Positions 26,801-51,465 of a stretch of 54,054 nucleotides of DNA are shown in pieces (position 1 is the first letter of the stretch; each line of letters begins with the position of its first letter). Below the pieces are notes generated by a model. It saw only the letters and a program-made list of their open reading frames with translations, did no database searches and had not been told where the DNA came from. The translations under genes were made by a program, and so were the position numbers. Source of the stretch: a virus; the IMG/VR virus record IMGVR_UViG_3300047300_000614, positions 1-54,054 of that record. One strand, given 5' to 3'.

Positions 26801-29800
26801 TTACCATCTTTATATTGTTGAATAGAACCATTAAGTTCATTTAACAAGATAGCGTAAACTCTATCGTAGCTTAAAGATTTTGGTAGCTGTAATGGGTTAC
26901 GCTTAAAGTAGATCTCACCTTTCTTTACATTAAAGTAATCATCAGTTAAACCTGCAAGTAATAACTTGAAGTTAGTTGCTCCAAACTTACGTGGATCAAT
27001 ACTGATACTATCTTTAATACCAAGGTTATCTGTTTTCTTTAACTCATCTGCCCCTTCTTCAACACTTGAGTAATCGTTATCTGATTGCTTAAAGATTAAG
27101 CCATACTTGCTAACACGAGTCTTAAATAAATCATAGATCTCTTCTGTGTTTGCAAATGCAGCGTCAAGCTGATTATACAATCCTTTGTATTTATTAAGTA
27201 CCGATCTATTATCGTTTAATAACTTATTAAACACACCACTCTTTTCTAAATCAGTTAACTTGCGGTTAAGCTTCTGCTCAATTCTACTAACTGCTTCTGC
27301 TAAGAACTCATTCTTGTTTCCTCTTGTGTATGCCTCAGCATCTGCTAAAGATTGTTTAAACAAAGAAACAAGTAACTCATTTGTATCTGCTGTATCATCA
27401 AGTAAAGCATCAATGTTCTTCTTGTTCAAATACAAGTTTCTAAAGAAGAAAGATGTTATACCATCAAGGAAGTACTTTGTAAACTCTTGACTAGTTCCAG
27501 GGATTGCACGATATACTGTCTCTAAGTTATTAAGATCTCTTACAGGGACAGCATTAGCAAACTCACCTTCATTAATACTAACAAATACTTTATTAATCTT
27601 GCTTTCTAAATCATTGAACTCAAGTTCTTTTAAACCAAAGATTCCTCTAATAAAGTTAATCAACTCTTGGAAGAATGTCTTTTGTTGTTTAGGCATATTA
27701 ACCGGTAACTTACCAGTTAACATATAATCTCTAAACGCTTCTGCCAACATCTCACGTACATCGTACATGCTTGCTTCAGCATACGGTTTCGTTTCGTTTG
27801 TGAATGGATTATAGAAAGTACCGTCTTGCTTTATAAACTCTTGAGCTAATTCATCCTGCTGAGCTTTTGTTAAGTAACTATTCCATACTGATTCAAAAGC
27901 TTCGTGGAAACCTGTACCGATCTCTGCATTCTCATAGATATAGATTGCACCGTTCTTAAATGCTCCCCATGCTTTGTTCTCAATAAGATCAGCCATTTTA
28001 TGAATAGGTACTTGTGGTAAAGCACGCTTCATAAATACAGCTAACTTAAAAAAGTCTTCTGTCTGACGAACAGGTCCTAACTGAAGACGGAAAACCATCT
28101 CTTCTCCGGTAGCATCAATACCAGCTTCATTACTTGCATTAAGAATATCTCCTGCTGCTAAAAGAGCTTCAATATCTGAACTAACAACCGGAGTTGCTGG
28201 AGTATCTGCAACTGGAGTACTTGAAGCAGTTGAATCAATACTTTCAGCTGCAGTATTCTTTATTGTTAAACGCTTCTTTGTTGTAGTTGTGCCTTTTGCA
28301 TCACCATTATCTTTTACAGACTTCGCAGCTTCTTGAGCTTTATCTTCTTTGATTTTTTGTGGTGACTTATTTTTCTCAACTGTTGCTTTTGAATCCGTTA
28401 GATCTTGTTCTGTTGGAGCAAATGCTAAGAAACGACCAGCTCTTTGTACACCAGCAGCTTCAGAAGGATTTGAATCGTACGGACGTTCATTTGTAAATAA
28501 TACAGGAACTCTACCGTCAGCATTACTTAATAGATACTCATTATAGTTAGAGTAGTCTTTTATCTGAGGTACACCATTGACCATAGTAACCTCAGTAAAC
28601 TTATCTGTCTTTCTTACTAATGAGCTATTAACAGAATGATACTTACCAGTTAGCATACCAGGAAGTTCTTTCTTAATAGTTTTTGCATCAAACTTAATGC
28701 TATCAGCACCTCGGTATAATTTACCTTTGCTGATATACATCATTGTTGAAGGAACAGCAACACCTTCAACTGGACTTGCCCAGTGTAAAATACCTGATAA
28801 GTATTTCTTTATTGCAAGAAACTCAGTGTCTTCTTGAGCAGAACGTTTCTTATTACCTATTAATCCAGTAAAGTATGCTAATACATCAGTGATGTTTGCA
28901 ATCTCTGCTTCTGATAACTGACGATTGTATACACGGTGAATACGGTTTGTATTCTTACCAATAAGTACAATCGATCCTGGTCTTACGTTTTCTGCTTCAG
29001 GATCATCTTCAATAGTTACTACCTTTAAGAACATAGCCTCACCACTTGGATGATGCAAGTCTCTAAAATCAGTAGTATCCATATCAATAACAATACCTTG
29101 AAGATCTTGTTCTAAAGGTCTGTTGTTGCTATCTTTTTCTGCAAACTTCTTAACACCTTGACTGACACCTGTGATATCTAAAACCTGAGCTTTTCCCTTC
29201 TTTGTTTCGCTTTTTATCATTTCACGAAACTGTTGAAGCATCTCAACTTCTTTTACGATATCCTCATCGGTATATTCTTCTTCAACTGTATAGATCTCTC
29301 TAATATACTTAACAGCTGCTTCTGCATTTTTCTTTACAGACATATCAGCTGTAAGTGTCTTATTGCCCATTAAAGAAGTATAGACAATAGTATCTTTTGT
29401 TGGGTTCTCTAAAGGATTACCAGCAACATCAACATATACATAATTACCATCTGCAAGTTTCTTAACAACAACTAACTTGATGTCATCAGAAAACTTATCT
29501 TCACGTCTAATACCTAACTCATCATTGTCTGCAGTAATAGGCAATAGATAAAAATCATTGCCAAGTATCTGAACTCCTTCAGTAAACTTAAAGAAGATAT
29601 GGTTATTGTTTTCCGTATTTATAGTTTTGTCATCATCCAAGAAATGACTACCTGCTGTTTTAAGTAATCCATACTTTCTGTAAGAAGGCTTTTGTCCTTC
29701 TGTACCTGTTCTTGCATAGAATGACTCAGCATCATTATCAATAATACCGTCACCTTCTCCTTCAAGACCTTCCATCTCTGGATCAACCTCAACCTTTTTA

Positions 29801-35465: not shown

Positions 35466-35509
35466 GACAATAATAATATACAAAAAATATGTGAGGTTTA
35501 AAACTAAAC
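35466..35509 (-). promoter_or_regulatory. Composite promoter-like element B before the 959-aa cargo gene
   Basis: Read on the - strand: palindrome GTTTAGTTTTAAAC (35509-35496), then CTCAC, then ATATTTTTTGTATATTATT. The gap between genes is 55 bases, and this element fills most of it. The same layout recurs at 39021-39065 and 51421-51465. Confidence 0.5.
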
Positions 35510-35518
35510 TTTTATTGT

Positions 35519-38500
35519 TTAGTCTTCACCATAGTAATTAAATGGATAAGCAGATGCTCCATAAGCTCCTCCCATAGGACCTAATAAACTACTAAGTCCG
35601 CTAAGCATTTGTCTTTGGGTTTTAGATAATGAACCATTTGCACCATATGTTGAAGTAGTTCTATTACCTTTTAGCATCTCCATTGCAAACTTACTAGCAT
35701 CTTCTTTACTTAATCCCGCATCCATACCTTTTTTGATTTGCTCAGCTATTGCAGCATATGGATCAGTATTAGAAGATCCTTTACCACTCATGATAAGCTG
35801 AGATATATCAACACCAGGTTTTAATACTTGGAAACCTGTTCTTGGATCAATATCAAAATACTCACTAGTTTTATTTAAAGCATCAAGCTTAGCACGATTA
35901 CCAAAGGCATTCTGATATGCAGCAAGAGTTTGTTTCTCAGCAGCATCTCTCATTGAGAAGTTTTCTAAGTTATACTTATTACTCATCTCAGCTAACATGT
36001 TTGCAGCCTGAGCTTTTTGTGCAAGGTTTTGATTAATAGTTGCTGCATTAACTGCATTAGCTTGATTTGCAATACCAACGTTCTGTGCATTTGTTGCAGC
36101 GTCAATATTTGCAATACCTTCTAATTGCTTACCAGCTATTTGACTAGATCCTGCTAAGTAAGACTGTGGTCTACCAAATGTACGTAATCCTTGGTTCTGC
36201 ATGTTTGCTTGCTCAGCAAGAGCAGCATATTGTCTTGTAGGATCAGCAAATACTGTTTCTGGTAATACATAATCAGGAGCTTGTACAAACGGTGACATTG
36301 TTGGAATACCAGCTCTAGTAATTAAACTCTGAAGAATAGCTGCTTTGTCAGGACGCATCATCCTAGCATTCTTTGGATTATATCCTGCACCTGCACTACC
36401 AGCAGTAGGACCTGTTGGTTGTGTATCTTCTGCAACATCTTTTGCAGCTGGTACATAATCTTCATCTCTAACATATCCAGCTGGTACATTATTTTGAGCT
36501 ACCTCTGGCGGTAACTGAAACTCTTCATTAGGATTAATATCAGAAGGGAAGTATGGATTAGTATACTGTTGTTTTTTTAACTCTTCGTTTTTAAACTGAT
36601 CCCATCTGTAACCTAACTTAGAATCATACATACCACCAATAGGCTTGCCATATTGCTTATGTAACTCATTAATACGAGCTGCTCTTTTTGGATCCTGCAT
36701 GATATACTTCTGTAATGCAAGATTATCTCCAGGAGTTCCGGTGTATCCTATTGATTTAGCATACTCATCCCAAGAAGAACTAGGGAACTTAGAAGCATTC
36801 TTTACACCTGAGTATCTGTCACCAGGCCAAGATTGAAAACCTCTTACTTCTCCACGTTTTTGATACTCAATAAGACCGCCTTCTTCTTTTGCAAAGTTGT
36901 GAGCAAAGACTGCTTTCTTAACCATCTCTGGAGAATACTGATCTTTGTTTGCTAAGATATGCGCAGCAGCTTCTTGAGTGCCCATACCCATACGAGTAGC
37001 TTGAGCTTTAAAGGTACCTTTCTTTGCAGGATCAATATGAATACCACCTTGTTGATACCAAGCATTACCTGAGAATGTTGAACCACCTTTCTTTGCGTAT
37101 TCTGCAGCTTCTGGTTCTTGTTCCATTCCTGGTTGTTCTTGCATACCACGAAGTTGCTCTACCAATTCTGGAGGTAACGCCATCATAGCGGCTTGAGGAA
37201 TACCTTGTGGAAATCCTTTCTTTGATTCTTGAGCTAATGCTAACTGGGCAAGCTTAAACTTGTTGTTATTCATCATCATCTCAGCTGTACGTTTTTGGTA
37301 CTGATCTGCATTTGGATCCTCTAAGATAGCTTTATATTTGTTAAGTTCATACTGTTTAGCTAATTCAGCTGGAGTATATCCTTTCTTTGTAGTTACAGAT
37401 TTACCAAACTGTGCTAATGCTTGACCTTTTAACTTCATACTTTTTGTATCTGAATAGATAAAAGTACCTGGCTTTAAGTTTAATGGTGTACCACCTTGAG
37501 AGTGACGCTTACCGCCAATCTTTGAGTGCTCCATTTCTCCATCACCATCTAAGTCACCATAAGCAGTTTCTCCTCGCTCAGCTTCTAGATTAGCCATATC
37601 TCTTGGTACAGCTTGTAATGTATCTTTTACAGCATAAGGATCTGGTTTACCCATCTCATTATCAATAACACGAGAACCAAGATCTAAACTATGTCCGTAC
37701 TGTCCACCATAAGCCATCTCTCCTAAATCTCCGCCAAACTGGCGAGTTATCATATCATAAGCAGTATTAAATCTACGTATCTGATTATTCGAATTAAGTA
37801 AACCTGGAATAAAGTTTTGTAATAGTTCTGGAGCATGTTTCATACCAGTACCTGTAACATGTTGTACAAACTGACTTGCTGGATTTAAATATTTGTCTGA
37901 TTGAGCAATAGGTGTTATAATATTATGGATTTTACCTGCAATATTTTTAGCTTTTGCAAACTTACCAATGTTAACAACTGCTTTAGCTCCTTTACCTGCT
38001 TTACCAATAAGTGGTAATGCAGAAGCCATTACTAAACCTTTTTCCCAACCTGGCATATTTGGATCATTGTATGCACGATACGCATCATCCCAAGCTGTAA
38101 TACCAGTTGGATCAAATACTTCAGCAATATCTTCTAAAACAGAATCTTCGTTTTGTCCCCCTTCTTGTAAGTGTCTTAAAAACTTAAATAGTGGAGTTGC
38201 TTTTGCTGCTGCAAATCCATCTTTAATAACAGGCCATAAACCTTTAGCTTCTTGATAAGCTTGCTCATATGCTTGATTAGCTGCACTTCTTCCGGCAACT
38301 GATGCAGGAGTAACACGTTTAAAACCAGCTTTAACGTTTTCAATCATCTTACCAAGATCTACTTCGTTATGGATCTTTTTAAGCTCAGCCATTTCACCTG
38401 CTGTATAGTTACCTCTAGTACGAATACTTTCAGCAATCTGCTCAGCTCTTTTAAAAGGATCAATAACTACTCTTGCACCAGCTTGTTTTGCTGCTTTACC

Positions 38501-39007
38501 AACTTGAGTTGCTGCAGTTTTATTAGCATTGTTATATAAATAACTTGCAGTACCCAGTCCTGCTAACGCTGATCCAGCAATACCCATAGGTATATATTGT
38601 GAAACAATAGGTAAATACTGAGACCATGAAGATTCTTCTTGCTCTTGAGGGGTTTCTGGTGCTGTGGCTTTAGGTAAAGTGTTTGGTGTAGATCTTACAT
38701 TACGAATAGGAGTTACCACAGGTCCTTCTTGAGCAACAGGTTGTTGTGCTGCCATTAAGGTATTTAAATCTTGAGTCTTTTTAAGCATCTCAAGCATCTG
38801 TAAGTTCTGTTCAGCAGTTCCTCGATAGTTTTCAATACCAAGGTTTTGAGCTATAGCTTTACGAGCATTGTAGCCAGCATTCTTTGCTTGACCATGTTCA
38901 GCTAAATAGTCATATACCGAAGGATTGTCTACGGGTGGAGTTTGTTGCCCACCAGTTTGATAATAACCATTAGGCTTTGCTGTAACTCTTACTTTATACT
39001 TCTTCAT
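35519..39007 (-). CDS. 1,162-aa virion cargo protein
   Basis: Probable internal virion protein. It opens MKKYKVRVTAKPNGYYQTGG, a short basic start also found in the 761-aa neighbour. Residues ~30-85 hold YDYLAEHG...RGTAEQNLQMLEML, and ~295-350 hold FDPTGITAWDDAYRAY...LPLIGKAGKG; both are repeated in the 1,093-aa neighbour. Near 500-525 lies GGKRHSQGGTPLNL followed by FIYSDTKSM, a motif I recall in other Bacteroidota phage virion proteins. A hydrophobic segment PMGIAGSALAGLGTASYLY (~136-154) could be a membrane span. The Ala/Gln-rich part near 1000-1060 is helical. No enzyme motif is seen. Preceded by promoter-like element A. Confidence 0.7.
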   Translation of the reverse strand: MKKYKVRVTAKPNGYYQTGGQQTPPVDNPSVYDYLAEHGQAKNAGYNARKAIAQNLGIENYRGTAEQNLQMLEMLKKTQDLNTLMAAQQPVAQEGPVVTPIRNVRSTPNTLPKATAPETPQEQEESSWSQYLPIVSQYIPMGIAGSALAGLGTASYLYNNANKTAATQVGKAAKQAGARVVIDPFKRAEQIAESIRTRGNYTAGEMAELKKIHNEVDLGKMIENVKAGFKRVTPASVAGRSAANQAYEQAYQEAKGLWPVIKDGFAAAKATPLFKFLRHLQEGGQNEDSVLEDIAEVFDPTGITAWDDAYRAYNDPNMPGWEKGLVMASALPLIGKAGKGAKAVVNIGKFAKAKNIAGKIHNIITPIAQSDKYLNPASQFVQHVTGTGMKHAPELLQNFIPGLLNSNNQIRRFNTAYDMITRQFGGDLGEMAYGGQYGHSLDLGSRVIDNEMGKPDPYAVKDTLQAVPRDMANLEAERGETAYGDLDGDGEMEHSKIGGKRHSQGGTPLNLKPGTFIYSDTKSMKLKGQALAQFGKSVTTKKGYTPAELAKQYELNKYKAILEDPNADQYQKRTAEMMMNNNKFKLAQLALAQESKKGFPQGIPQAAMMALPPELVEQLRGMQEQPGMEQEPEAAEYAKKGGSTFSGNAWYQQGGIHIDPAKKGTFKAQATRMGMGTQEAAAHILANKDQYSPEMVKKAVFAHNFAKEEGGLIEYQKRGEVRGFQSWPGDRYSGVKNASKFPSSSWDEYAKSIGYTGTPGDNLALQKYIMQDPKRAARINELHKQYGKPIGGMYDSKLGYRWDQFKNEELKKQQYTNPYFPSDINPNEEFQLPPEVAQNNVPAGYVRDEDYVPAAKDVAEDTQPTGPTAGSAGAGYNPKNARMMRPDKAAILQSLITRAGIPTMSPFVQAPDYVLPETVFADPTRQYAALAEQANMQNQGLRTFGRPQSYLAGSSQIAGKQLEGIANIDAATNAQNVGIANQANAVNAATINQNLAQKAQAANMLAEMSNKYNLENFSMRDAAEKQTLAAYQNAFGNRAKLDALNKTSEYFDIDPRTGFQVLKPGVDISQLIMSGKGSSNTDPYAAIAEQIKKGMDAGLSKEDASKFAMEMLKGNRTTSTYGANGSLSKTQRQMLSGLSSLLGPMGGAYGASAYPFNYYGED

Positions 39008-39020
39008 ATTAATATAGTAT

Positions 39021-39065
39021 CTACTCTATAATTTACTAAAATATTGCTAGTTTAACAAGCTAAAC
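39021..39065 (-). promoter_or_regulatory. Composite promoter-like element A before the 1,162-aa cargo gene
   Basis: Read on the - strand: palindrome GTTTAGCTTGTTAAAC (39065-39050), then TAGCA, then ATATTTTAGTAAATTAT and AGAGTAG. The last ~27 bases are almost the same as in element D at 51421-51445 (ATATTTTGTAAATTAT...AGTAG). Just upstream AAACCCTTGAGGTTT could form a small 5-bp hairpin sharing bases with the palindrome. Confidence 0.55.
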
Positions 39066-39074
39066 CTCAAGGGT

Positions 39075-41360
39075 TTAAAGGAACTCAACATCTCCACCCA
39101 TTGCTTTGATCTGCATGATTTGATCTGCTGTAAGTTCATACTCCCCACCTTGTTGCATTAATTCAATATGTAAGTGATCACCTTCATTAATGATATCCTC
39201 TATACCATATTGTCTTTTTATGCTAGGATTTTGGGCTAAGAACTTTGTCAATCGATTGTAAGCTGCTGGGTCAGAAGAGTTTGCACCAATATCAATAGCT
39301 TTGTTTGCATAATGTTTAGATCCTCTCATATGCTTACTATCGTTTCCAGATGAGATTTTTAATCCTGGGAAATAATCAGACATTGCAGAAGCAAATGATT
39401 TCAAGTTAGGATCTAAGTTGTTTGTGTTTACTCCTTTCTTTGTACTTATGTTTTTAGTTAAGTAACTCATTGGAGTTGTACCAAACGCATCTTTTGTATA
39501 CTTACCAGTTCTGATATACTTCTCTGCTCCTTCTGGACCTTGGAAGTGAATCAACATCTTAATCTGATTTGTATCAAGATTAGGATTATATTGTTGTTTA
39601 ATCTTTTGAGCTTTTGGTGTAAGTACATTCTGATCCCAATAATCAAAGTATGCTTCTTGTGCTTTTGGACTATTCAAGAACTGGCTCTTACTATTAACAC
39701 CAGTCACTGTACGGATAGTATCTTTGTGAGTATCCCATAAGAACTGATATTTACCAGCAGCTGAACTTGCAAGTGTACCATCTTTTCTACGAGGTAATGC
39801 TTGGTAGTTACCTAGGCTTTCTCGTTGCGCAATAATCTCTCTTAAGTTTCCTTCCGGTGCTTCATATGAAGACTCTGCTTGTTCAGGAGCTTCTTGAGAT
39901 ACTGACATATCATTTGGTTGTGCCCGCATTGATGAGAAATCAAACTCAGGTGTACCGATACCTATTGTATTAATACCAGCTGCGTCATCAAAAGAGTCAA
40001 CTGTATATTTAGATACTGTATCCATTGATACAGGAACCTCAATACCTTGTTGTGCAAATGTTTGATTTGGTCTAAACATACCATATGAACTTGGTCCTTG
40101 TGAAAAGTTACCTCTGTTCATTGTATCATTATACTGTTGATTCCAAGATGCATTCTGAGCACGTAGCATTTGACGGTTAGCTTCTTCACGCTGATTCTGA
40201 TTCTCTAAAGCTTGCATTTGTGAATATGTATTAAATGCATTGAATACACTATCACCAAAATCAGAAACATAATCATCAGCCTTTTCTACTTTTCTTAAGA
40301 AGTTATTTGCTTTTATTTGCCATGGTGAACTTATCTTTTTACCATCTGCTTTAACTGGATTTGTTTCTTGTTGTTTATTAACAACATATCCGCTTTGTTG
40401 TACTTTAGGCGTAGCAGTATTTGTAGTACCAGTCCAACCTGTTTTCCAATCATAAGTAGGGGCACCTGTTAATTGTGGATTAGTTGTACCAGCAGTTGCT
40501 TGTGTTGTTGATGTAGTACCTGTTGGATTTTGACCTACTATTGTAGGTAGATTAAACTGACCAACTGGTTTTTGTTGAATCTGCAAACTTGGCGCAGTCT
40601 GAATATTATATTGCGGTTTAGTTTGTTCAACTGGCTGAGCAACAGTTTGTTGTTGTACAGGTTGTTGTACTGCTTGTTGCTGTGCAACTGCTTGTGCAAC
40701 TGGTTGTGCAGCAGCTTGCGTAGTAGACTGAGTTATAGACTTTGGTGTTTGATATTGTCCAAAGATACCTAAACGTGGTTTCCATGTAGCATTATACGCG
40801 GTACTAGGCTGACCGTTTACCGTATTGATGTTACGATAGTAGTAATCTCTACCTGCATCCATTAACTTAACACGTTCTTCTAGTGGAAGTGCATCAATCT
40901 TTGCTTGATATGATTTATACAAATTTTCAAACTCACCAGCTTTAGCTCCTTTAGCACGGTATGCTCCACGATCTTGAAGACCATTAGGCATATTTTCATA
41001 TTGACGTACATACTGATCTAGCATGTATAAACGAGCATCTTCACCAGTGTTGTATAAAAAGTCACCTGCACGCTCACGCATACCCATTGGTAGACCCTGA
41101 ACCTTTGGTAAATAATCTTGTTGAAAATAACCTACAGCTTCATCTAAAGTTTTTGGATTACGAGTATGATATCCCCAATCAGAAAGACCTGTTCCAGTAG
41201 GAGATCCGTGTTGATATTCATAATCAAAGATTCTTTTTATCCAACTAGTATTATCTTCTTGTGGAGTCTGGCCATTAAACTCACCTAGCGTTTGTGCTTT
41301 TATTAATCCGCCTTGACGTTTAATATCAGGTTTTGCTAATCCTGTGATACGAATCTTCAT
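39075..41360 (-). CDS. 761-aa virion-associated lysin with lysozyme-like and M15-peptidase-like domains
   Basis: Probable wall-cutting cargo. N-terminal domain (~40-185): FDYEYQHGS...GLSDWGYHT...YFQQDYLPKV...RERAGDFLYNTGEDARLY, resembling a phage muramidase/GH108-like fold, uncertain. A Gln/Ala/Val/Pro-rich linker covers ~215-285. A lysozyme/transglycosylase-like domain begins near IIAQRESLGNYQ (E514 likely catalytic) with SAAGKYQFLWDTH. The C-terminal M15/VanY-like peptidase has SKHYANKAIDIG (H683, D690) and GDHLHIEL (H729, H731). The last ~25 residues (GGEYELTADQIMQIKAMGG...) resemble the end of the 1,093-aa neighbour. The ATG at 41360 is chosen: it follows the neighbour's TAA by one base and opens MKIRITGLAKP; a TTG at 41375 is an alternative. 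Confidence 0.8.
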   Translation of the reverse strand: MKIRITGLAKPDIKRQGGLIKAQTLGEFNGQTPQEDNTSWIKRIFDYEYQHGSPTGTGLSDWGYHTRNPKTLDEAVGYFQQDYLPKVQGLPMGMRERAGDFLYNTGEDARLYMLDQYVRQYENMPNGLQDRGAYRAKGAKAGEFENLYKSYQAKIDALPLEERVKLMDAGRDYYYRNINTVNGQPSTAYNATWKPRLGIFGQYQTPKSITQSTTQAAAQPVAQAVAQQQAVQQPVQQQTVAQPVEQTKPQYNIQTAPSLQIQQKPVGQFNLPTIVGQNPTGTTSTTQATAGTTNPQLTGAPTYDWKTGWTGTTNTATPKVQQSGYVVNKQQETNPVKADGKKISSPWQIKANNFLRKVEKADDYVSDFGDSVFNAFNTYSQMQALENQNQREEANRQMLRAQNASWNQQYNDTMNRGNFSQGPSSYGMFRPNQTFAQQGIEVPVSMDTVSKYTVDSFDDAAGINTIGIGTPEFDFSSMRAQPNDMSVSQEAPEQAESSYEAPEGNLREIIAQRESLGNYQALPRRKDGTLASSAAGKYQFLWDTHKDTIRTVTGVNSKSQFLNSPKAQEAYFDYWDQNVLTPKAQKIKQQYNPNLDTNQIKMLIHFQGPEGAEKYIRTGKYTKDAFGTTPMSYLTKNISTKKGVNTNNLDPNLKSFASAMSDYFPGLKISSGNDSKHMRGSKHYANKAIDIGANSSDPAAYNRLTKFLAQNPSIKRQYGIEDIINEGDHLHIELMQQGGEYELTADQIMQIKAMGGDVEFL

Positions 41361-41361
41361 A

Positions 41362-44300
41362 TTAAATAATATCAAATGTATAACCTTGTCTTTTTAACTC
41401 AAACATCTCTTCAGGAGTTACATCAATCTCTTGCCCTAAACTTAATTGCCCACCATGCTTTTTATCAGGAGTTACGTATAACGACATACCTTGATTATAT
41501 GGAATGTTAGTAAAGTATGGTTTGTTCAAAGTACTTTTACGACAGTTAATACAACCTGCACTCATTCGATTATTCTTAACATTATTGTCTCCAAAAAGTG
41601 GAAGACGTTGTTTTTCTAATGCAACTGGTACACCATGTAATGCTGCAGTAACTGCTCGATTAGGATCTTTAGGATCTGGTATTAATCGTTTATTAGGATC
41701 AATATGCTGCATTGTAAAAAAGTTATTCGATCCATACTGACTAGCAATATCAGCAACCTTTCCTATTTTATTTGTCTTTGTTACTTTATACTCTCCAGAT
41801 GGTGTAGTTCTAACCTTATAAAATATAGGCTGCGCATCTCCTGCATCTGAACCTAATCCAACTTCATCTTGAAGAACTAGATTACCGTCTTCGTCAAAGA
41901 AATACCCGCGGGAGTTTTGCTTTGATACAATACCAAACTTCTTGCCTTTATTAGTATCATGATACTGATTATAATATCCAGCAACGTCTTGCGGAAGAAT
42001 AAAGTCAGTGTTCTTAACCTCATCTTCATTCACATTCAATAGTTTATAAAGCCAGTTACGATTGTCGATTTTATTTGTTACTCTTTGCATACCTTTAGGT
42101 ACTGGTGGCATTTGACGAGATGCTGAAGCAACATTTCTAAAAGGTACAGCTGCTTGAACTCCAGGTGTTGGGAATGCAACATTAGGTCTAACTTGTTGAA
42201 ACCTTTGCTGCTGCCCTTGCAACATCTGCATCATCTTTAAGTTTTGTTCCGCAGAGCCAGTATAGTTACCATTAAAGTATTGGTCAAACATTTTTTTACG
42301 ATTAGCAAAAGAAGCATTTAATCCTCTTTGTGTCATGTAATCATAAATACTACCGCCTTGCTGTAGGTTCTTTAACCAGTTAATACCTTTGTTAAACCAA
42401 CTAGCTTCTTCCATGGCTTCTACAGGTTCATATTTACCAATACCGTTAAGCTGAATACCATTTTTCATATTATCAAATACTAAATAAGAAGGATGACCAG
42501 ATCCAGCACCTGTGCCATGAACTAATTGACCAGGTTCATTAATATATCCTGTATGCTCATATTTTCTAGAACCAGGATAAAGTCTTGGGCCATAATCACC
42601 GGAGTCATTACTCTTTTCTTGAGAAGTTGCTCTTGCTGCTTTACCTTTTGCTTTTCTACCTGAAGCATCAAGACTATTGTTAATACGATTTAGTCCTACT
42701 AAATAACCCGCATCAAGGCTCTGTAAATATTCAGGAACAGCATATGAAGTAGGATCAGGTAATAGTTCTTGATTACTCTCAATCATTCCTTCATAATTAG
42801 GATTTGTCCAAACAACTGGATTTTGATTACCTAGTAACCAAGCATGATTACGACCAAAATCATAACCTTTTGCACGAGCAAAACTAGTAGCAATATCAGC
42901 ACAACCTTTAGCTGTACAAACAAAACGACTGTTAGGATACATTTTATTAAGCATCTCTGCTTTTTCTACCCAGTCTTTATCAATAGTATTATCACCTACT
43001 TCAGGATATATCTTAGCAATATCTATATAACCATCTTTCGATCTTACTTGACCAGCTTTTTGATATTTTTTCATAACTCCGCCATATTGTTTGTATTGAT
43101 CATATGCTTGATAAGCATCAGATCCTCTTCCTATTACTGGTCCATACTTACCAGTAGCTTTTAAAAGTTCAGCTGCAGCTTTTGCATTCCTCTTTTGTCT
43201 TTTAGTAATTGCTAATCCTGTAGAAAGCATATCTACTAATTGACCAAACTTCTTAGCTTTACCTAACATAGGTATTGCACCAAAAGCTTCAAGAGCAGTT
43301 GCACCAGACATTCCTGAATCAATAGCTGATCGATACACATCATCCCAAGAAGATATACCACTAGGATCAATTATCTCAAAGATATTTTCACCAAGTGTAT
43401 CAGGCATTTGTCCTCTATAATTACCAGGACGAACATGTTTTGCTACATTACCTAATCTTGTGTTATCTGGATATGCTATAGTCTGTCCACCCGGTTGCAT
43501 TTTATTTTTACCAGTAACTACGTTAGTACCTTGTTTATATCCATTAGCACCATACCATGTAGCTTGTTCGTCATTAGGGAACTGAATATACTGACCAGTG
43601 TCCATTGCGTAGTTATAAGCAGCACGAGGATCTCTTTGATTTAACCACTCTACAAACTTATTACCTGGACGTTGAACAACAGTAGGATAAGCACGAGCAT
43701 CACCGGATTCCATAAAATGCGTACTTGGTTTTTTAGAACCAGGTAAGAACATCTGTGGAGCATTAGGATTGTACATACGCTGAACAAAGTTCTTGTCCAT
43801 GTTTGCATTATTTACACTATCAACCCACGCTGTTCTATTAGAATCCCATAGACCGCCAAACTGCATCTTAGATTTGATCTTACGTTCTTGCTCTAGCATC
43901 TCCTTAGTAGGTTTTTTACCAGAACCTTTATTAGCACGAATGTTATCCCAAAGACCACGTCTTGAATATGAACCATCCGCTCTACGAATCATCTCACCAC
44001 CATTCTTAAGCTCTGCCATATCTAAAAAAGATTGTGCATTATAAGTAACATTATCACGATTAAAATCAGACATCATTTGTCGCGCAATCTCTGCACGATT
44101 TTGTCGATCTTCTATTTGAGATAATATATCAGCAATACCGTTAACCATCTCACGCTCATCAGATGTCTGACCACCTTCTGCCCAAGTTTTTCTAGCAAAA
44201 GCTCTAAAGAAAGGATTGTTCTCTAGATTCTTTTTATGACGTGCATAGAAAGCTTTCTTACGTTTAGGATCTTTTGGATGTTGACCCATGCTAGAATCGC

Positions 44301-44643
44301 CAAAGTATTTAACAGTACCATCTGGACCAGTAACTTTATGAGTCTTTCCTTTGCGATCATTACTTCGTGTAACAACATATCCACCACTACCCATCATTGG
44401 ATACTCAGTAACATTATCAGCATCAGGATAATAATACTGTTGATCAGGATACATCATTTGTGGTTGCCCTACATTAGGTACACCTAACACAGGATAACTA
44501 ACTGCATCCATAGTAATACTATTAGATGGGATGTTTGTTATCTCACCAGGATGTTGCCATTGGTTTTTCGGAACCTTTAGTTTACTAGGTTTCTTGTTTA
44601 AGTCCTTTGTAATCTGTGATAGTAATGATCTGTTATAACTCAT
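41362..44643 (-). CDS. 1,093-aa virion protein with L,D-transpeptidase-like C-terminus
   Basis: Multi-domain cargo protein. Near residues 95-160: KKAFYARHKKNLENNPFFRA...TWAEGG, a short conserved phage block. Near 215-250: MIRRADGSYSRRGLWDNIRA, which I recall from other phage virion proteins. Near 420-475: IDPSGISSWDDVYRS..., and near 760-810: YDYMTQRG...YTGSAEQNLKMMQML, both shared with the 1,162-aa protein. At ~574-605: VCTAKGCADIA (C581) and GRNHAWLL (H600), a possible papain-like/NlpC-type site. C-terminal domain: H1003 in ALHGVP and NNRMSAGCINC (S1028, G1030, C1031), the HG...SxGC signature of YkuD L,D-transpeptidases. It starts by a 4-base overlap (ATGA) with the muzzle-type gene. Confidence 0.75.
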   Translation of the reverse strand: MSYNRSLLSQITKDLNKKPSKLKVPKNQWQHPGEITNIPSNSITMDAVSYPVLGVPNVGQPQMMYPDQQYYYPDADNVTEYPMMGSGGYVVTRSNDRKGKTHKVTGPDGTVKYFGDSSMGQHPKDPKRKKAFYARHKKNLENNPFFRAFARKTWAEGGQTSDEREMVNGIADILSQIEDRQNRAEIARQMMSDFNRDNVTYNAQSFLDMAELKNGGEMIRRADGSYSRRGLWDNIRANKGSGKKPTKEMLEQERKIKSKMQFGGLWDSNRTAWVDSVNNANMDKNFVQRMYNPNAPQMFLPGSKKPSTHFMESGDARAYPTVVQRPGNKFVEWLNQRDPRAAYNYAMDTGQYIQFPNDEQATWYGANGYKQGTNVVTGKNKMQPGGQTIAYPDNTRLGNVAKHVRPGNYRGQMPDTLGENIFEIIDPSGISSWDDVYRSAIDSGMSGATALEAFGAIPMLGKAKKFGQLVDMLSTGLAITKRQKRNAKAAAELLKATGKYGPVIGRGSDAYQAYDQYKQYGGVMKKYQKAGQVRSKDGYIDIAKIYPEVGDNTIDKDWVEKAEMLNKMYPNSRFVCTAKGCADIATSFARAKGYDFGRNHAWLLGNQNPVVWTNPNYEGMIESNQELLPDPTSYAVPEYLQSLDAGYLVGLNRINNSLDASGRKAKGKAARATSQEKSNDSGDYGPRLYPGSRKYEHTGYINEPGQLVHGTGAGSGHPSYLVFDNMKNGIQLNGIGKYEPVEAMEEASWFNKGINWLKNLQQGGSIYDYMTQRGLNASFANRKKMFDQYFNGNYTGSAEQNLKMMQMLQGQQQRFQQVRPNVAFPTPGVQAAVPFRNVASASRQMPPVPKGMQRVTNKIDNRNWLYKLLNVNEDEVKNTDFILPQDVAGYYNQYHDTNKGKKFGIVSKQNSRGYFFDEDGNLVLQDEVGLGSDAGDAQPIFYKVRTTPSGEYKVTKTNKIGKVADIASQYGSNNFFTMQHIDPNKRLIPDPKDPNRAVTAALHGVPVALEKQRLPLFGDNNVKNNRMSAGCINCRKSTLNKPYFTNIPYNQGMSLYVTPDKKHGGQLSLGQEIDVTPEEMFELKRQGYTFDII

Positions 44644-47600
44644 CGGTTACTGATTTGTAGCTTTGTGCTAATTAGCTTGAATAACATTTTTGTTGAACCA
44701 CTCTTTATCTTTCTTAAGAATACACGATTAGAGTAGTGTCTAAACTTCTTGCGTTCTATTGCTGACTTTTTATAGTCAATATACTTCGGATTAAGTGTTC
44801 TAGTGTATCCATTTGAAGACACATTAAACATCGGTACTTCGTTACCGACAAACTCTCCTCTGTTTTTAGTAATATCCCAGAACTGATTAAAACGATACTT
44901 ATTCTCTTCTTTTGAATAATTAATTCTAATGCTTTCTGATTGTACTGATGGATAAACTAATAAGCTAACAGGATCATTCTTCTTCTTTATGTTAAGCTCT
45001 AAGTAACCAGATACTTGTTCTGAGTTATATACTAAAGCTCTATCAAAGTTATCGTCAAGCAAGTGGAATCTATCATTACCATCGTTTAAGTATTTAAAGC
45101 ACTCAAGAATATACTCAACGTTTCTTACAGTTGATACCGTTGCGCCGGTTGATGCAACATACTCTATTTCAAATGGATAATCAACACCGTAGAAGTTACA
45201 GTATAGATCTGTTCTACTATTATGTCTCCAAATACTTTTATCTTGTACAGATAAGAATGAGCTTCTTGCCGGGATAATAAAGCTAGGATGCCAATCATGA
45301 AGAGATATAAACTGTTCATTCTTAACATCGTAACTCATTGTCCAAGAAGCGTTCTCAAAGTGCAATGGATCACCAAGAACAACTTTGTTCTTTGTTTGCT
45401 TAACTACTCCATTATCAATAAACTCTTCACCTAAAGTATAGAAACCGTTTATAGTATCATACTTAAGGTTTGCATTTATTGGTTTGTAATCTTTTTTAGT
45501 AATGTATAAGATCTCATTAGTATTATCATAGGACATGTTACAGCCAATACCAATAAGAGGGTTATCGTAGTCAGCAAAGTTTGGATAAGCTTTAAGTAAC
45601 TGTGAAGGAAGATATTTGGCAAACCACCACTTGTTACCGTTTCTTGAGATCTCTTTGTATTGTCCTGCATACTGAAAGATTTTACCTTGTTCTTGTGATA
45701 CCCAGAATACACCTGCTGGTATACCAACAATGGCGTATTTACTTTGACATGATCCATACTGATACTCATCATCAGTATTCATTATGTTTCTCATTGGTTG
45801 TGTGAATAAACCACCATCACCAATAGTTATTTTAATACCTGCATCTGTTTGTAATGTATCAACACCTTGGATTAATATCGGTGACTCATTCTCTAACATG
45901 ATAAGAGCTCCGCTATGACCAACTGATTTTAATGACGTTACCCTACCACTCATATCAATGTAGTTGTTAGGTAAGAAACGTACCCAGTTATCTTGCATCT
46001 GCTCTTTATCTTGAGGTAAAGAATACATGATTCTAGATGGTGAGTAACTATAACATTGTTCAGCTATTTTTGGATCGTAGCTACGTGGCTGTAAAGATCC
46101 CCAGCTAATATAGTTATTATATAACTTAGATACACTAAGAGAGTAATCATATTTATAGAAGTTACCTCTCTTCATAATATCTGATCTAAACATAGAACTT
46201 AAATCAGTATATCGATCAGGATCATAGTGACGTTTTTCTGGAGTCTCATCCCAGTCACGGTATGCTAAGTTTACTTCTGATTCTACAAAGAAGTCTCTAA
46301 CTCCATTACAGAACAAATAGAAGTACCCTCTATCAACAAAGGAATCTTTTTCATAACGATCATCAAGATGTGAAAAAGCAGTAGTTCCTTGAGCAACTAA
46401 TCGTCTTGCATCTGTATTCTCTAACCAATAACGAGGATATGCAACCGACATTCTTGCACGATAGTCATATAACAACTCATCTTGTTGATCATATAACCAA
46501 TCATGGAAAAATAAGAATGGGTTCTTTTCCGTATATCTTCCAATGTAAACATCACCTCCAAATAATATATCAGTTGAATAAACCTTTGTTTTATCTGGTT
46601 GTGTTTGGTATACACATGTATAAACAGGAATCTGTTTAATAGATTCTAGTTGACCATACTGAGATGGAAAAGCAGATTTAATCGCACCATAGTATGCAGA
46701 GATATTAGTCTCAACTATTTGATTAAGACCAACTTGTAATTGTGTCTTTGTATTTCTACTACTGTCAATAGTCTTTGGTGTTTCAAACTCACGTTCTGTA
46801 TTAACTAATACATACTTACCCCTATGTAAGTTATTTATACGGTAGTTATTATAAGACTGTAAGTTATCTCCAATATAGAAAGCATCAGTTACTTTTCTAC
46901 GCGCATTATCTGAAGCAGAATTAATTAGATAGTTGCTATAAAAACCATGAGAGTCATACTGAGCAGCATACTGACGTTTTGGAACCATGCTTGCAATAAC
47001 ATTGATTACCTTTTCAGAATACTGGTCTTTCATTAATTTTGCTGCAGTATATAAAGCATACACGTTCGCAGCAAATGTAGCAACGTTAACTAAGTAAGCA
47101 GCAAGAGAAATAGCAGATGCTACCTCACCACCAAAAGTACCAGCAGCAGCTGGAGGGGCAGGAGTAGGAACAGCCCCACCCATTGAGAATGAGAAAGGTT
47201 GTCCTTCTGTGCCACCAAATGTAATTGTTTTTGCTGCGTTTGTTAATACGTTTGTTGCAATAAGAGTAGCTAACAAACTATCAATAACAGTTTTTGCTTG
47301 CTCACTTAACTGCTTGAACTGAGGATGTTTGTATACATGCTTAAAACTACCTTGAGATTTACCATAAACCTCACTATATATCTTTAATTCACTAGCTGAA
47401 AGATAAGGTTTAGAGAAAGAAGTATCAGGACTATGGAAAGAAAACATGTCCTTTCTATACTCAGTCAATGGATCTTCTAAACGATTATTTCTTGAACCAA
47501 CATCAATAAAGCTTTTATTTGATGTTAAAAATAAATCGGATCTTAAGTCGTTATAAGGATAGTTTTGATATAATCCTTTAACTCCTGGTTGATCAGGCAT

Positions 47601-49229
47601 ATCATGCTGACGCATATTGTTTAATAAACCTTTTGCAACAACAGTCTTATTACCTTCTCTTGAACCACGCAAGATCTCATAACCAACAATATCTTTTATT
47701 GGATTACCAGCGTTATCTAAAGGAACAGATATATTCTCAAACTTAACTCCAAGAATACGTATTTTATCACCGCCTTGTGACTGATGATATACTTGTTCAG
47801 CTAATGAGTTATCTGGAAACTTATGATGTCTAATCTTTTCTCCACATAAGTTACCCCAAATATCTGGTCTATTATCTGGATAAATCTCAGTTGATTCCCA
47901 GAAACCCATCTCACCTTCAGCAATAACTACACCACCATCAGTACGTTGTGTATTTGGAAGTGATAATACTTCAGCCGTATTTTTTACTTTCCATACTTCT
48001 GGCGACTCATCTCCTTCAATAGCACTAGCATCTGCAGAAAATAAATAGTTGCGTTCTTGAGTACGAGGAGCTCTTCCAGGAATGTGGTAAGATGCAGACT
48101 TATCACCTGTATTATATATCCATCTAATAAAGAAGGCATACTGTTCATCACGCATGTATCCGGTGTTGTTACCACCTTTTACGTAATAGTTTGCAGGATA
48201 CTCAACAGTTGCCCACTTAGTAACTATTTTATTAGCTATTGGTTGATAGTTAAAGTCAAACTTGCTTTGTATACCTACTCTAACTAAATAGTTATTCAAG
48301 CGATACATTGCATCAGCAGATTCAATTGCTGGTGTTACTAATGGGATTAGTTCTAATGGTATTGTAATAAGATCTGGTTCTACAGAATCAATATGTACAC
48401 GGTTCTGATTAACTGAGTATATACCTAATCTTTTAGCTGTAGTTTGATTATTTACTACTGAGATGAGTACTAACTCAAACTCATCAAAATCTTGGTCTGT
48501 ATTCGAGATATCAACGGTTAAACTACCACCTTCACCATCGTGATCAAATAGACCTTGTACTTCAGATACTACTAGATAGTCAGTAACACGAATACTATTA
48601 ATTGAGTATGCAATAGCAACTTGATAAGAACCGTTTCTTAAAGTACCAGCAGCTTTACCTTTTTCAATGTTGATGCATGGAATAGTTAAGACTTGTGCAA
48701 TACGCATCTTCTCTACATCAAGTACTCCTGTTGATTGTTCTATGTAACACTCGCCTTGTTTTACTTTCTTTGTAACATAAGGTACGTTATCAAGATCTAA
48801 TACGCGACCAGGGTTACGTCTACCATCTTCAAAGTATACTTTATAACCACAGTCAAATCCTTTACGAGACGCTCCTGTGATTAAGTTCTTCTTATTAAAA
48901 TTTAAGCCACGACTGTTTACAACAGTCTTGTACGTACCAAGATTAGCGTCAAAGATACCAATCTCAGAATCAATGTCATCTGTTGTAAATACAGCCCATG
49001 TACCATCAATGATAGGTATAGTACCTATAAGAGAGTAAGGTAAATCAACTGTATGCAAGTTAGCTGGTTCATTACCAAGAACACCAACTTGACCATCGTG
49101 TGAGTTATTGACAGCGTTTCGTGCATGCAACCATACACCTTCACCAACGAAGGTTTCGTTAAGGTCTTTCATCATACCTTTTGAGAAGGTATTGATTACA
49201 CTAGCATTATCTTGTGGTGAGGTTGCCAT
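44640..49229 (-). CDS. Muzzle / stabilization-type tail protein (1,529 aa)
   Basis: Matches the large protein that follows the ring proteins in crAss-like phages and closes the tail barrel (called muzzle or stabilization protein). The opening NTFSKGMMKDLNETFVGEG...ARNAVNNSHDG is characteristic, with GTWAVF and an early GYKVYFEDGRRN. Much of the chain is beta-rich, and repeated segments such as GVFWVSQEQGKIFQYAGQYKE suggest beta-propeller blades (~1150-1330). A hydrophobic helical insertion near 690-730 (ISLAAYLVNVATFAANVYAL) could enter the membrane. The start shares one base with the preceding gene's stop (TAATG), which indicates coupled translation with the ring protein. Confidence 0.8.
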   Translation of the reverse strand: MATSPQDNASVINTFSKGMMKDLNETFVGEGVWLHARNAVNNSHDGQVGVLGNEPANLHTVDLPYSLIGTIPIIDGTWAVFTTDDIDSEIGIFDANLGTYKTVVNSRGLNFNKKNLITGASRKGFDCGYKVYFEDGRRNPGRVLDLDNVPYVTKKVKQGECYIEQSTGVLDVEKMRIAQVLTIPCINIEKGKAAGTLRNGSYQVAIAYSINSIRVTDYLVVSEVQGLFDHDGEGGSLTVDISNTDQDFDEFELVLISVVNNQTTAKRLGIYSVNQNRVHIDSVEPDLITIPLELIPLVTPAIESADAMYRLNNYLVRVGIQSKFDFNYQPIANKIVTKWATVEYPANYYVKGGNNTGYMRDEQYAFFIRWIYNTGDKSASYHIPGRAPRTQERNYLFSADASAIEGDESPEVWKVKNTAEVLSLPNTQRTDGGVVIAEGEMGFWESTEIYPDNRPDIWGNLCGEKIRHHKFPDNSLAEQVYHQSQGGDKIRILGVKFENISVPLDNAGNPIKDIVGYEILRGSREGNKTVVAKGLLNNMRQHDMPDQPGVKGLYQNYPYNDLRSDLFLTSNKSFIDVGSRNNRLEDPLTEYRKDMFSFHSPDTSFSKPYLSASELKIYSEVYGKSQGSFKHVYKHPQFKQLSEQAKTVIDSLLATLIATNVLTNAAKTITFGGTEGQPFSFSMGGAVPTPAPPAAAGTFGGEVASAISLAAYLVNVATFAANVYALYTAAKLMKDQYSEKVINVIASMVPKRQYAAQYDSHGFYSNYLINSASDNARRKVTDAFYIGDNLQSYNNYRINNLHRGKYVLVNTEREFETPKTIDSSRNTKTQLQVGLNQIVETNISAYYGAIKSAFPSQYGQLESIKQIPVYTCVYQTQPDKTKVYSTDILFGGDVYIGRYTEKNPFLFFHDWLYDQQDELLYDYRARMSVAYPRYWLENTDARRLVAQGTTAFSHLDDRYEKDSFVDRGYFYLFCNGVRDFFVESEVNLAYRDWDETPEKRHYDPDRYTDLSSMFRSDIMKRGNFYKYDYSLSVSKLYNNYISWGSLQPRSYDPKIAEQCYSYSPSRIMYSLPQDKEQMQDNWVRFLPNNYIDMSGRVTSLKSVGHSGALIMLENESPILIQGVDTLQTDAGIKITIGDGGLFTQPMRNIMNTDDEYQYGSCQSKYAIVGIPAGVFWVSQEQGKIFQYAGQYKEISRNGNKWWFAKYLPSQLLKAYPNFADYDNPLIGIGCNMSYDNTNEILYITKKDYKPINANLKYDTINGFYTLGEEFIDNGVVKQTKNKVVLGDPLHFENASWTMSYDVKNEQFISLHDWHPSFIIPARSSFLSVQDKSIWRHNSRTDLYCNFYGVDYPFEIEYVASTGATVSTVRNVEYILECFKYLNDGNDRFHLLDDNFDRALVYNSEQVSGYLELNIKKKNDPVSLLVYPSVQSESIRINYSKEENKYRFNQFWDITKNRGEFVGNEVPMFNVSSNGYTRTLNPKYIDYKKSAIERKKFRHYSNRVFLRKIKSGSTKMLFKLISTKLQISNR

Positions 49230-50140
49230 TACTTAAAGGTAGTATTTGAAGCTGAACTAAACATTGCATAATATCTATTGTACTGAGCTTTTCTGTTCTT
49301 AGCCCATAGATCATGCATCTCTTGGAAGTTCGGAGTATTAACTATTGATAAAGCATTATTTCTTGCTGCTCTATACAAAGGTTCAATAAGTTGAATCTGG
49401 TTTGTGACAGTGTTCTCACCGTTCATAAACAAGTTCTCAAGAATACGTTTCTTTAAAGCGTACTCATAGTATTCGTTAATCATTGGGTGATCAAGAACCA
49501 ATAAGTTGCCTTCTTCATCTTCAAGAGCACCCTCATAGTTTAAGTAAATCTTTCCTTCTGTTAGATTAGTATAGATGAAACCGTTTTTGATTTCAGCTCG
49601 CCAAGCAGTGCTGTCACCAGCAAGCCCCATACTTTGAGCGTAACGAGATAAAAACTTACTTGGATTCATATGTACTCTTTCAAAGTGATCGTACACTCTG
49701 ACCTCGTTTCTGATCTTCTCAACAAGTATTACATCCCCTGCACAGTCACCATTTACTTGAGTTGATGTACTATATGTATCATTGCATGCACAAACAGTTG
49801 CTTCAGACCCACAAAGTCTACAAACGTTTGGATCAACAACAAGTGTTAACTCCTCAGTTTGACGACCTGCCATTACAGGAGTTTTTACTTTGTACTGACC
49901 TAACAACATTGCATTGTTTAGTACATAGAAATCTAAAGGCAAGCGAGCTTTACCTTTTGATATTTCAAGAACAGTTTCTTTTGTTTTGTTTATACGTAAA
50001 CCAAGATCATAAGAAACACGTTGAGCAACTTTGATAAGATCAGCCGGCTCAATCATACCCTCAAGGTTATACATACGAAAGTCAGATGCCACTGCTGCCA
50101 TCAACTCGTCAAAGGTGCGATATTGTAAGTCCGTATTCAT
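49229..50140 (-). CDS. Ring/collar-type tail protein (303 aa) with a cysteine cluster
   Basis: Structural protein of the collar or tail barrel, judged by its place between the smaller ring protein and the muzzle-type gene and by its style (FDELMAAVASDFRMYNLEG, then KGKARLPLDFYVLNNAMLLG), which I recall from crAss-like ring proteins. It has C107xxC110 and C117xC119, plus C133, a cluster that could bind zinc or form disulfides. The C-terminal ~80 residues are helical. One-base overlaps at both ends (50140 and 49229) show tight coupling with its neighbours. It may be related to the T7 gp11 / P22 gp4 role, but not by visible sequence. Confidence 0.7.
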   Translation of the reverse strand: MNTDLQYRTFDELMAAVASDFRMYNLEGMIEPADLIKVAQRVSYDLGLRINKTKETVLEISKGKARLPLDFYVLNNAMLLGQYKVKTPVMAGRQTEELTLVVDPNVCRLCGSEATVCACNDTYSTSTQVNGDCAGDVILVEKIRNEVRVYDHFERVHMNPSKFLSRYAQSMGLAGDSTAWRAEIKNGFIYTNLTEGKIYLNYEGALEDEEGNLLVLDHPMINEYYEYALKKRILENLFMNGENTVTNQIQLIEPLYRAARNNALSIVNTPNFQEMHDLWAKNRKAQYNRYYAMFSSASNTTFK

Positions 50141-50817
50141 TATCTAAAGTTACTTTGTTTATCTGCGGATACGTCTGATGGTATCTGTAAGGTTACACCA
50201 AAATCTTTCATTACGTTTGATTCAATCTCACCATGAAGATAATCTGGTACATTAAATGATTCTAGTTGTCTGAAGTTACAGTCATCAGTAGGATCACAGT
50301 TCCAACATCCAACACTATCATCAAAAGCTGCTTCAATCTTTACCGCATCCCAATCTAAATCAGGAAAGTATAAGTAATCATTTAAGAACCAGAAGTACTT
50401 TGCATTATTATACTTATAGTTCTTTTGCTTTGAGATATTTAAGAATGATGCTGGAGTAGTTGGCTGTAATGCTTCACTACCATCAATAGATGTAATTGAT
50501 CTAATAAGTGGTCCCCAATAACCTTGCATAAATGCAGGTATCTTTGCTTTTGTGCGTCTAAATGTAATCCCTGATTTAATACCAGTACATTGTGCTTCTA
50601 CTCGATCTATCTCAATAAGCTCAACAAAATCTAGTGTTTGAAAGATAGAGGAAAAAGACATGATCTTATTCTTGCTATCTTCACGCTTCATTAACCACTT
50701 AGCGTGTTTTTGTATTAGACTATAAATAAAACGATCAGTTAAAAAGGCGTCAGATTTGACAGCCTTCAACTGATTTCGTACTCGTGAGATAACTTCTCCA
50801 ATAGTGGTTCTTGCCAT
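50140..50817 (-). CDS. Ring/collar-type tail protein (225 aa)
   Basis: It begins MARTTIGEVISRVRNQLKAV followed by a helical segment, then a beta-rich middle (YFWFLNDYLYFPDLDWDAVKIEAAF) as seen in small ring or head-completion proteins of crAss-like phages. CWNCDPTDDC (C170-C179 region) is a second cysteine cluster like that of the next gene. The C-terminus (VMKDFGVTLQIPSDVSADKQ) is a pattern often found in this protein class. It lies 7 bases after the 194-aa gene and overlaps the 303-aa gene by one base. A head-tail connector or tail ring position is inferred. Confidence 0.7.
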   Translation of the reverse strand: MARTTIGEVISRVRNQLKAVKSDAFLTDRFIYSLIQKHAKWLMKREDSKNKIMSFSSIFQTLDFVELIEIDRVEAQCTGIKSGITFRRTKAKIPAFMQGYWGPLIRSITSIDGSEALQPTTPASFLNISKQKNYKYNNAKYFWFLNDYLYFPDLDWDAVKIEAAFDDSVGCWNCDPTDDCNFRQLESFNVPDYLHGEIESNVMKDFGVTLQIPSDVSADKQSNFR

Positions 50818-50824
50818 GATTATA

Positions 50825-51409
50825 TTAATCTAAGTCGAACTCATCATAGTTAATGAGATCTTCAGCTGTTTTCTTATCTTGTATATCTCGTTGATTGGAT
50901 ATACGAAACATCCGGGAGATCTTCTGAAAGTTATCTACAACCGGATACTTTTTCCACTCAATGGGATATGTTTTAGCAACAGTACGTTTGAAGTCTCTAA
51001 CTCCAGTAAAGCCCCACATATGATGAAACTTAAACCTGTACTTAACTTCAAAGTTTGTATAAAAGATCTTGGCAACATATTGATCTGATTCCCAGTTCTG
51101 TCGTTGTACTTTAACACCATAGATCGAAGACTTCTGATAATCAGTGTTGTCTGTGACCTTGCGTTTGCATGTACCAATGAACAAATAACCAAGATGTTCA
51201 GGTAGTTCTACCCCATCTCTATTATCAATAACTGTTTCCCAGAGCTTTTGATTAATTGCGCAAACAATCTTTTTATACTCTTGGTAGGTCAAAGAACGAT
51301 ACTTAGGATTCTTCTGTAAGAAGTTACGGAATGTTTCCTGACTAAGTACGTTTAGTTTCTTTGGACGATACCGAGGAGCATTTAAATCTGGTTGTTTATA
51401 TACCTTCAT
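50825..51409 (-). CDS. Probable ring/connector protein (194 aa)
   Basis: First gene of the collar cluster, 194 aa. It contains a basic N-terminus (QPDLNAPRYRPKK), then LNVLSQETFRNFLQKNP..LTYQEYKKIV, a beta-rich centre (ELPEHLGYLFIGTCKRK) and a C-terminal acidic tail (DLINYDEFDLD). Aromatic and basic residues around FKFHHMWGFTGVRDFKR look structural. No enzyme motif is present. Position before two ring-type genes suggests a connector or collar part. It starts 11 bases after promoter-like element D. Confidence 0.6.
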   Translation of the reverse strand: MKVYKQPDLNAPRYRPKKLNVLSQETFRNFLQKNPKYRSLTYQEYKKIVCAINQKLWETVIDNRDGVELPEHLGYLFIGTCKRKVTDNTDYQKSSIYGVKVQRQNWESDQYVAKIFYTNFEVKYRFKFHHMWGFTGVRDFKRTVAKTYPIEWKKYPVVDNFQKISRMFRISNQRDIQDKKTAEDLINYDEFDLD

Positions 51410-51420
51410 ATAGAGGCTCT

Positions 51421-51465
51421 TCTACTAATAATTTACAAAATATCCGCCAAGTTTCCTATGAAAAC
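51421..51465 (-). promoter_or_regulatory. Composite promoter-like element D before the ring-protein cluster
   Basis: Read on the - strand: GTTTTCATAGGAAAC (51465-51451), an imperfect palindrome overlapping the end of the phosphoesterase gene, then TTGGCGG, then ATATTTTGTAAATTATTAGTAG. It is the same order and nearly the same downstream box as element A. Confidence 0.55.

Follow-up and report, generated by a model that had tools for sequence, protein, structure and literature searches.

Probable late promoters with a changed -7 box and, at some sites, a half-site array in a clade of uncultured crAss-like phages

In bacteriophage T4, the middle promoters carry a MotA box, a phage regulator site in place of a weak -35 element, and the late promoters have the box TATAAATA, read by gp55, and no -35 element. 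The sigma-A promoter of Bacteroidota, seen also in crAss001 and phi14:2, has TTG at -33 and TAnnTTTG at -7. According to the available sections of PMC9723704, the Flavobacterium box lies at -12 to -5, and the Flavobacterium SM5 box is TAnnTTGY. The available sections of PMC8375218 and PMC10136315 report or propose that the virion RNA polymerase of phi14:2 and crAss001 transcribes the early genes and that the host polymerase transcribes the middle and late genes. Our literature search found no promoter motif for a crAss-like phage; PMC12127119, on the phi14:2 polymerase, may describe phi14:2 promoters. For crAss-like phages, the virion polymerase accounts for the early genes and the host polymerase is presumed for the rest, with the late switch at issue.

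The elements described here share with the sigma-A promoter a TTG and a 20-base spacing, both common, and a similar order of operon genes, but they differ in a TAWATTATnnTG -7 box, in strand exclusivity and in an AAAC/GTTT array at some sites. They may work like the T4 MotA middle promoters, with a putative regulator site at a weak -35 region, but the site is a dyad or tripartite and the -10 box is another one. Like the T4 late promoter they have a late-specific, AT-rich -10-type box, but they keep TTG-N20 at many sites. The SM5 box likewise varies the -7 sequence while keeping the sigma-A position, but it is unlike TAWATTAT. Taken as a whole, it is likely that these are late promoters of the clade with a sigma-A-like -33 element and spacing, a changed -7 box and, at a subset of sites, an array that a regulator would bind.

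The window, that is, the whole stretch of DNA analysed, is one IMG/VR virus record of 54,054 bases and probably a fragment; a nucleotide search of phage records gave no match. Its plus-strand genes match DNA polymerase, DnaB-like helicase, primase and exonuclease families, and its minus-strand genes match virion families (PHROG). Across the genomes compared, one strand likewise holds DNA polymerase, helicase, primase and exonuclease, and the other terminase, portal, major head and other virion proteins. We call the replication-gene strand early and the virion-gene strand late, timing labels that derive from strand and gene content. A close relative (G001) has PHROG matches to portal, terminase and major head protein, a region outside the window. 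As regards membership of Crassvirales, the window encodes a homologue of the phi14:2 virion RNA polymerase: residues 3038-3400 of a 4902-aa protein match 6vr4_A, the phi14:2 enzyme, at E 1e-21, with DFDID at residue 3093. The C-terminal helicase of this protein matches Pfam AAA_30 and UvrD_C_2, and a phi14:2-type virion RNA polymerase and an SF1 (Dda/RecD-like) helicase are joined here in a single chain. The next gene after it (12979-17829) has a PD-(D/E)XK nuclease match.

The preliminary description had reported three composites of a GTTT..AAAC palindrome, ATATTTT and a further box on the minus strand, and all three are present. These sites, A, B and C, and the genes behind them are as follows.

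51451..51465, minus strand: box 1 of site A, GTTT..AAAC half-sites GTTTTCATAGGAAAC (pattern search; kept in relatives)
51456..51458, minus strand: putative -33 slot of site A, TAG, which at the same time ends ORF 51456-52730 as its stop codon; 20 bases ahead of the -7 box
51428..51435, minus strand: -7 box of site A, TAAATTAT; start predicted near 51423, leader about 14 nt
50825..51409, minus strand: first gene after site A, 194 aa (PHROG matches for the operon)
50140-50817, 49229-50140 and 44640-49229, minus strand: virion structural genes next after the 194-aa gene (PHROG matches)
39073..39076, minus strand: upstream half-site AAAC of site B (tripartite pattern)
39050..39065, minus strand: box 1 of site B, GTTTAGCTTGTTAAAC, containing the -33 TTG at 39058-39056
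39028..39035, minus strand: -7 box of site B, TAAATTAT, exactly 20 bases after the TTG; start predicted near 39023, leader about 15 bases
35519..39007, minus strand: gene after site B, 1162 aa, with a peptidase-like segment
35517..35520, minus strand: upstream half-site AAAC of site C (tripartite pattern)
35496..35509, minus strand: box 1 of site C, GTTTAGTTTTAAAC, with the -33 slot TTT at 35503-35501
35473..35480, minus strand: -7 box of site C, TATATTAT; start predicted near 35468, leader about 5 nt
32584..35463, minus strand: gene after site C, 959 aa, adjoining the virion RNA polymerase gene
17845..32553, minus strand: 4902-aa protein, virion RNA polymerase homologue with C-terminal SF1 helicase (PDB, Pfam, motif)
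12642..12671, plus strand: canonical TTG-N19-TATATTTG on the replication-gene strand, for contrast

Start positions were placed by analogy with the position of the Flavobacterium box, as given in the available sections of PMC9723704. In each element ATATTTT comes 5-7 bases behind the palindrome, with GTAAATTAT next at A and B and GTATATTAT at C. A third half-site, AAAC, lies 11 bases upstream of GTTT in B and C and is absent from A in the window; it had been missed previously. The minus-strand gaps holding A, B and C measure 46, 67 and 55 bases. Most other minus-strand junctions overlap or nearly touch, as had been noted, with the exception of a 164-base gap before the gene starting at 52730.

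The comparison with shuffled sequence suggested beforehand gave a clear outcome: the full pattern occurs three times in 54 kb, always on the minus strand, against a mean of 0.04 and a maximum of 1 in 100 dinucleotide shuffles. Furthermore, C scores 24.2 and B 22.1 with a matrix built from site A and its orthologues alone, and five shuffles of the window reached 1.5 at most. Dyad symmetry followed by ATATTTT could also suggest RNA hairpins or terminators between virion genes with a T run after them, and C does fold at -12 kcal/mol (z -2.0). However, A and B show no folding beyond that of shuffled sequence (z 0.49 and -0.05), two early-strand terminator-like hairpins reach z -3.1 and -4.1, none of the three elements appears in the output of the terminator scan, and a fixed spacing to a -7 box would be unexpected of a terminator. 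We therefore reject this explanation for A and B on folding and scan, and regard it as extremely improbable in general. The two early-strand structures just mentioned (window 12690-12740 and 3920-3960, plus strand) are strong G+C-rich hairpins with T runs between genes and look like intrinsic terminators.

For the core promoter we took the window and 12 relatives read fully or nearly (G005 to base 120,000 of 121,096), leaving out G002 and G004; ORFs were called mechanically, and counting only gaps of 40 bases or more there were 233 late and 300 early upstream regions. TTG-N20-TAWATTA occurs in 31 of the 233 late regions (0.15 expected) and in 0 of the 300 early ones (0.35 expected), counts that are not independent since the genomes share ancestry. 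GTAWATTA occurs in 70 of 233 late regions (4.45 expected) versus 4 of 300 early (4.6 expected). When the spacing between TTG and TAWATTAW was scanned from N16 to N24, N20 gave 31 late regions and every other spacing 0-3. Inside late-strand coding sequence the core has 18 matches, and on the early strand 11, which is close to the whole-genome shuffle means (17 and 12, respectively). The genome comparison thus yields a clade core of TTG-N20-TAWATTATnnTG, almost solely on the virion-gene strand. Together with the rarity of the elements in shuffles, this strand-exclusive core bears out the earlier suggestion of promoter sites, and on sequence grounds A, B and C are very probably promoters. GTAWATTA is absent from 163 of the 233 late regions, which suggests that many late genes use another start signal or are reached by read-through.

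With the core set as TTG-N20-TAWATTAT, the parts of the composite fall into place differently from what had been assumed. GTA(A/T)ATTAT stands as the -7 element, in the form TA(A/T)ATTAT; ATATTTT is an AT-rich spacer and not the -7 box; and the -33 slot falls within the palindrome, where it reads TAG in A, TTG in B and TTT in C. The sigma-A-type TTG, expected some 19-21 bases ahead of the -7 box, is accordingly found at B and not at A or C. None of the three carries the Bacteroidota box TAnnTTTG (A and B have TAAATTAT, C has TATATTAT), in agreement with the earlier remark that the box is related to, and not equal to, that sequence.

The contrast phages phi14:2 and crAss001 (first 100,000 bases each), phi17:2 and the Leptolyngbya phage Lbo-JY46 have TTG-N20-TAWATTA in none of 171 upstream regions (0/69 late, 0/102 early); phi17:2 was specifically without this core among its upstream regions. 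In contrast, TTG-N20-TAnnTTTG occurs in 18 of the 171 (9/69 late, 9/102 early). At the place syntenic with site A, the crAss001 gene has TTG-N20-TATATTTG, phi14:2 has no such match, and in phi17:2 and Lbo-JY46 a TAnnTTTG is paired with TTT in the -33 slot. Since these phages use TTG-N20-TAnnTTTG and never TAWATTA, the -33 element and spacing of the clade match those of Bacteroidota sigma-A, with the -7 box changed.

A strict core, TTTG-N19-GTATATTATnnTGTAGA, searched over IMG/VR retrieved 53 stretches, and all 53 share clade proteins (tblastn best at least 147 bits). The earlier expectation of a phage-specific signal is supported. From these comparisons, the promoters are likely to be late and specific to this clade of uncultured crAss-like phages. 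A different view is that TAWATTAT is simply the ordinary -7 box of a host whose sigma-A is unlike those known from Bacteroidota, with nothing phage-specific about it. The -33 element and N20 spacing are indeed host-like, and our scan of bacterial genomes for relatives of the virion protein found none and gave no host link. However, the same 13 genomes also contain TTG-N19/20-TAnnTTTG, which turns up in eight late regions and three early ones (against roughly 0.1-0.3 expected per cell; three of the eight late matches overlap the TTTG of a late promoter), and TATATTTG alone occurs in 12 of 300 early regions versus 2.1 expected. Moreover, the early strand shows no enrichment of the TAWATTAT core, though a host transcribes, or could transcribe, both strands. 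We consider an ordinary host box unlikely.

The palindrome itself is part of a larger array, AAAC-N7-GTTT-N5-8-AAAC, with the third half-site present in B, C and most relatives. In the 13 genomes this array occurs 24 times, against a shuffle mean of 2.0 in all. Twenty are in late intergenic regions, two in early and one in late coding sequence, and the remaining one, early intergenic, is a listed late site seen from the opposite strand. All 20 late intergenic arrays run into the AT-rich spacer and box, and the genes behind them, where looked at, are those of A, B and C; behind 11 of the 15 listed palindromic sites comes a homologue of the 194-aa gene. The bare GTTT-N6-8-AAAC was rejected as a signal, being uninformative alone (233 per strand in the 13 genomes versus about 160 in shuffles). 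The half-sites are 10-12 bases apart, about one helical turn, and would thus face one side of the DNA.

Conservation of site A was followed with the 225-aa virion protein, which gave 42 loci. In 41 of them the sequence extends through the preceding gene and into the region upstream of it, the other, L039, being truncated at the contig edge. GTAAATTA lies upstream of the preceding gene in all 41. When 29 distinct sequences, the window's included, were aligned on GTAAATTA, the half-sites upstream stood in register with no gaps, giving the consensus AaGTTTaanTaGgAAAcnTcntagATTTTtcGTAAATTATTAaTgtAg (lower case weaker); part of this conservation could be coding, since the TAG slot of A in the window doubles as the stop codon of the preceding ORF. 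In six relatives the top match of the A-trained matrix was always the A site, A sites being in its training set, and in several of them the next-best matches were sites before the virion-polymerase operon.

Near-copy removal reduced the 73 late GTAWATTA sites to 59, of which 21 have TTG at N20; allowing a looser first base and adding the A-site loci gave 67 distinct core sites, 18 palindromic and 49 other. One of the 18 (G010_33334) probably satisfies the palindrome rule by chance. Most of the other late-strand promoters found have the core but no palindrome, so the palindrome is a feature of a subset. The built-in operator proposed earlier is supported as an operator-like dyad. TTG occupies the -33 slot in 24 of the 67 sites, in 4 of 18 palindromic versus 20 of 49 non-palindromic ones, and TAG in 9 of 18 and 7 of 49, respectively.

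The array overlaps or straddles the -33 slot, in which TAG or TTT often stands instead of TTG. This overlap suggests a phage regulator that would help or replace the -33 contact at the neck/tail and virion-RNA-polymerase operons, and the frequent degradation of TTG suits an activator bound there, as with T4 MotA. The main competing explanation treats the array as a repressor operator that silences the virion operons until late, with the core read by unmodified host polymerase. The -33 region is a usual place for repression, and other late promoters in eight genomes carry (A)GTTTAAAC between -33 and -7, where a bound protein would block polymerase. But a strong promoter under repression should retain its TTG, and the ratio given above fits an activator replacing the contact. 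On balance we lean slightly towards an activator rather than a repressor as the half-site protein, and judge the scheme of a silencing operator with unmodified polymerase rather doubtful. The promoters with (A)GTTTAAAC have TTTG and GTATATTA with this compact palindrome between the boxes and precede small genes of unassigned function:

G003:116498, G005:770, G006:104660, G007:23201, G008:1108, G009:71120, G010:17185, G014:16822: (A)GTTTAAAC promoters

Which polymerase reads the core is a separate matter. A newly made virion RNA polymerase could be considered, as the genome encodes one in the operon behind C. However, in the available sections of PMC8375218 and PMC10136315 the phi14:2 and crAss001 enzyme is reported or proposed for early genes, with host polymerase acting late, and the two-box layout matches sigma-dependent promoters; this alternative is very unlikely. 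The sigma-type two-box promoter, together with the host polymerase assigned to middle and late genes in those same sections, makes a host polymerase with changed specificity the simplest reading. Such a polymerase, carrying an altered or alternative specificity factor, would read the -7 box late in infection, and a phage DNA-binding protein on the half-sites would recruit it where the -33 contact is weak, much as an activator takes over the -35 region. The neck/tail operon would then be driven from A, a single large gene from B, and from C the operon making virion RNA polymerase for the next infection. That a new specificity factor reads the -7 box is only a tentative suggestion. Equally tentative is the complete scheme, in which an unrecognised factor re-aims host polymerase from TAnnTTTG to TAWATTAT with -33 kept, and an AAAC/GTTT-array protein drives the neck/tail and virion-polymerase operons. 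If true, transcription would run as a three-stage programme of virion polymerase, host polymerase and reprogrammed host polymerase. The late signal of this clade is sharp and testable, and the alteration of a single element in it points to a dedicated factor; its pattern can be used to find late genes and clade members in metagenomes.

A phage sigma-70 factor was rejected as a candidate: the region 2 model (PF04542) matched in none of 14 records at E up to 1, a search that a very divergent factor could escape, and the region 4 Pfam models gave weak matches only, below cut-off. Two conserved early proteins beside the DNA polymerase gene (window 7671-8249 and 8273-8656) have predicted folds with mean pLDDT 82.8 and 87.2; Foldseek found no match for them in PDB at E 0.001 or better, for which reason we do not call them regulators, and a PDB profile search with the 7671-8249 protein gave nothing convincing (best E 0.25). 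An early-strand winged-helix protein of 91-95 aa occurs in 9 of 12 relatives. Its family is one of ten found in at least eight of the ten array-bearing genomes and in neither of the two array-free ones (G011 and G012), and in our reading the sole one of those ten with a recognisable DNA-binding fold. G008 has the array without this protein, and G011 and G012, which have no tripartite site yet keep an A element with GTTT..GGAAAA, may be just a sister branch. The small winged-helix protein is thus a weak candidate for the regulator.

Some further elements accompany these genes. Just before the DNA polymerase gene lies the leader block GGGGGAACAGCTTAACTGAAC (window about 8724-8744, plus strand), of which CAGCTTAACTGAA is a part that precedes this gene in 9 of 13 genomes, the window included. 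The block TTATAGCTCTATTATCC (G013:5898, G007:13630, G009:59927 and others) stands about 100-111 bases before a late gene of about 420 aa in seven genomes; in six it likewise precedes a small early gene, by 63-84 bases, and it may be another control element. In G013, at 88403-88897 and 89009-89281, back-to-back promoters set TATATTTG on the early strand facing GTATATTAT on the late strand, and the protein behind the former appears to resemble the DnaA DNA-binding domain.
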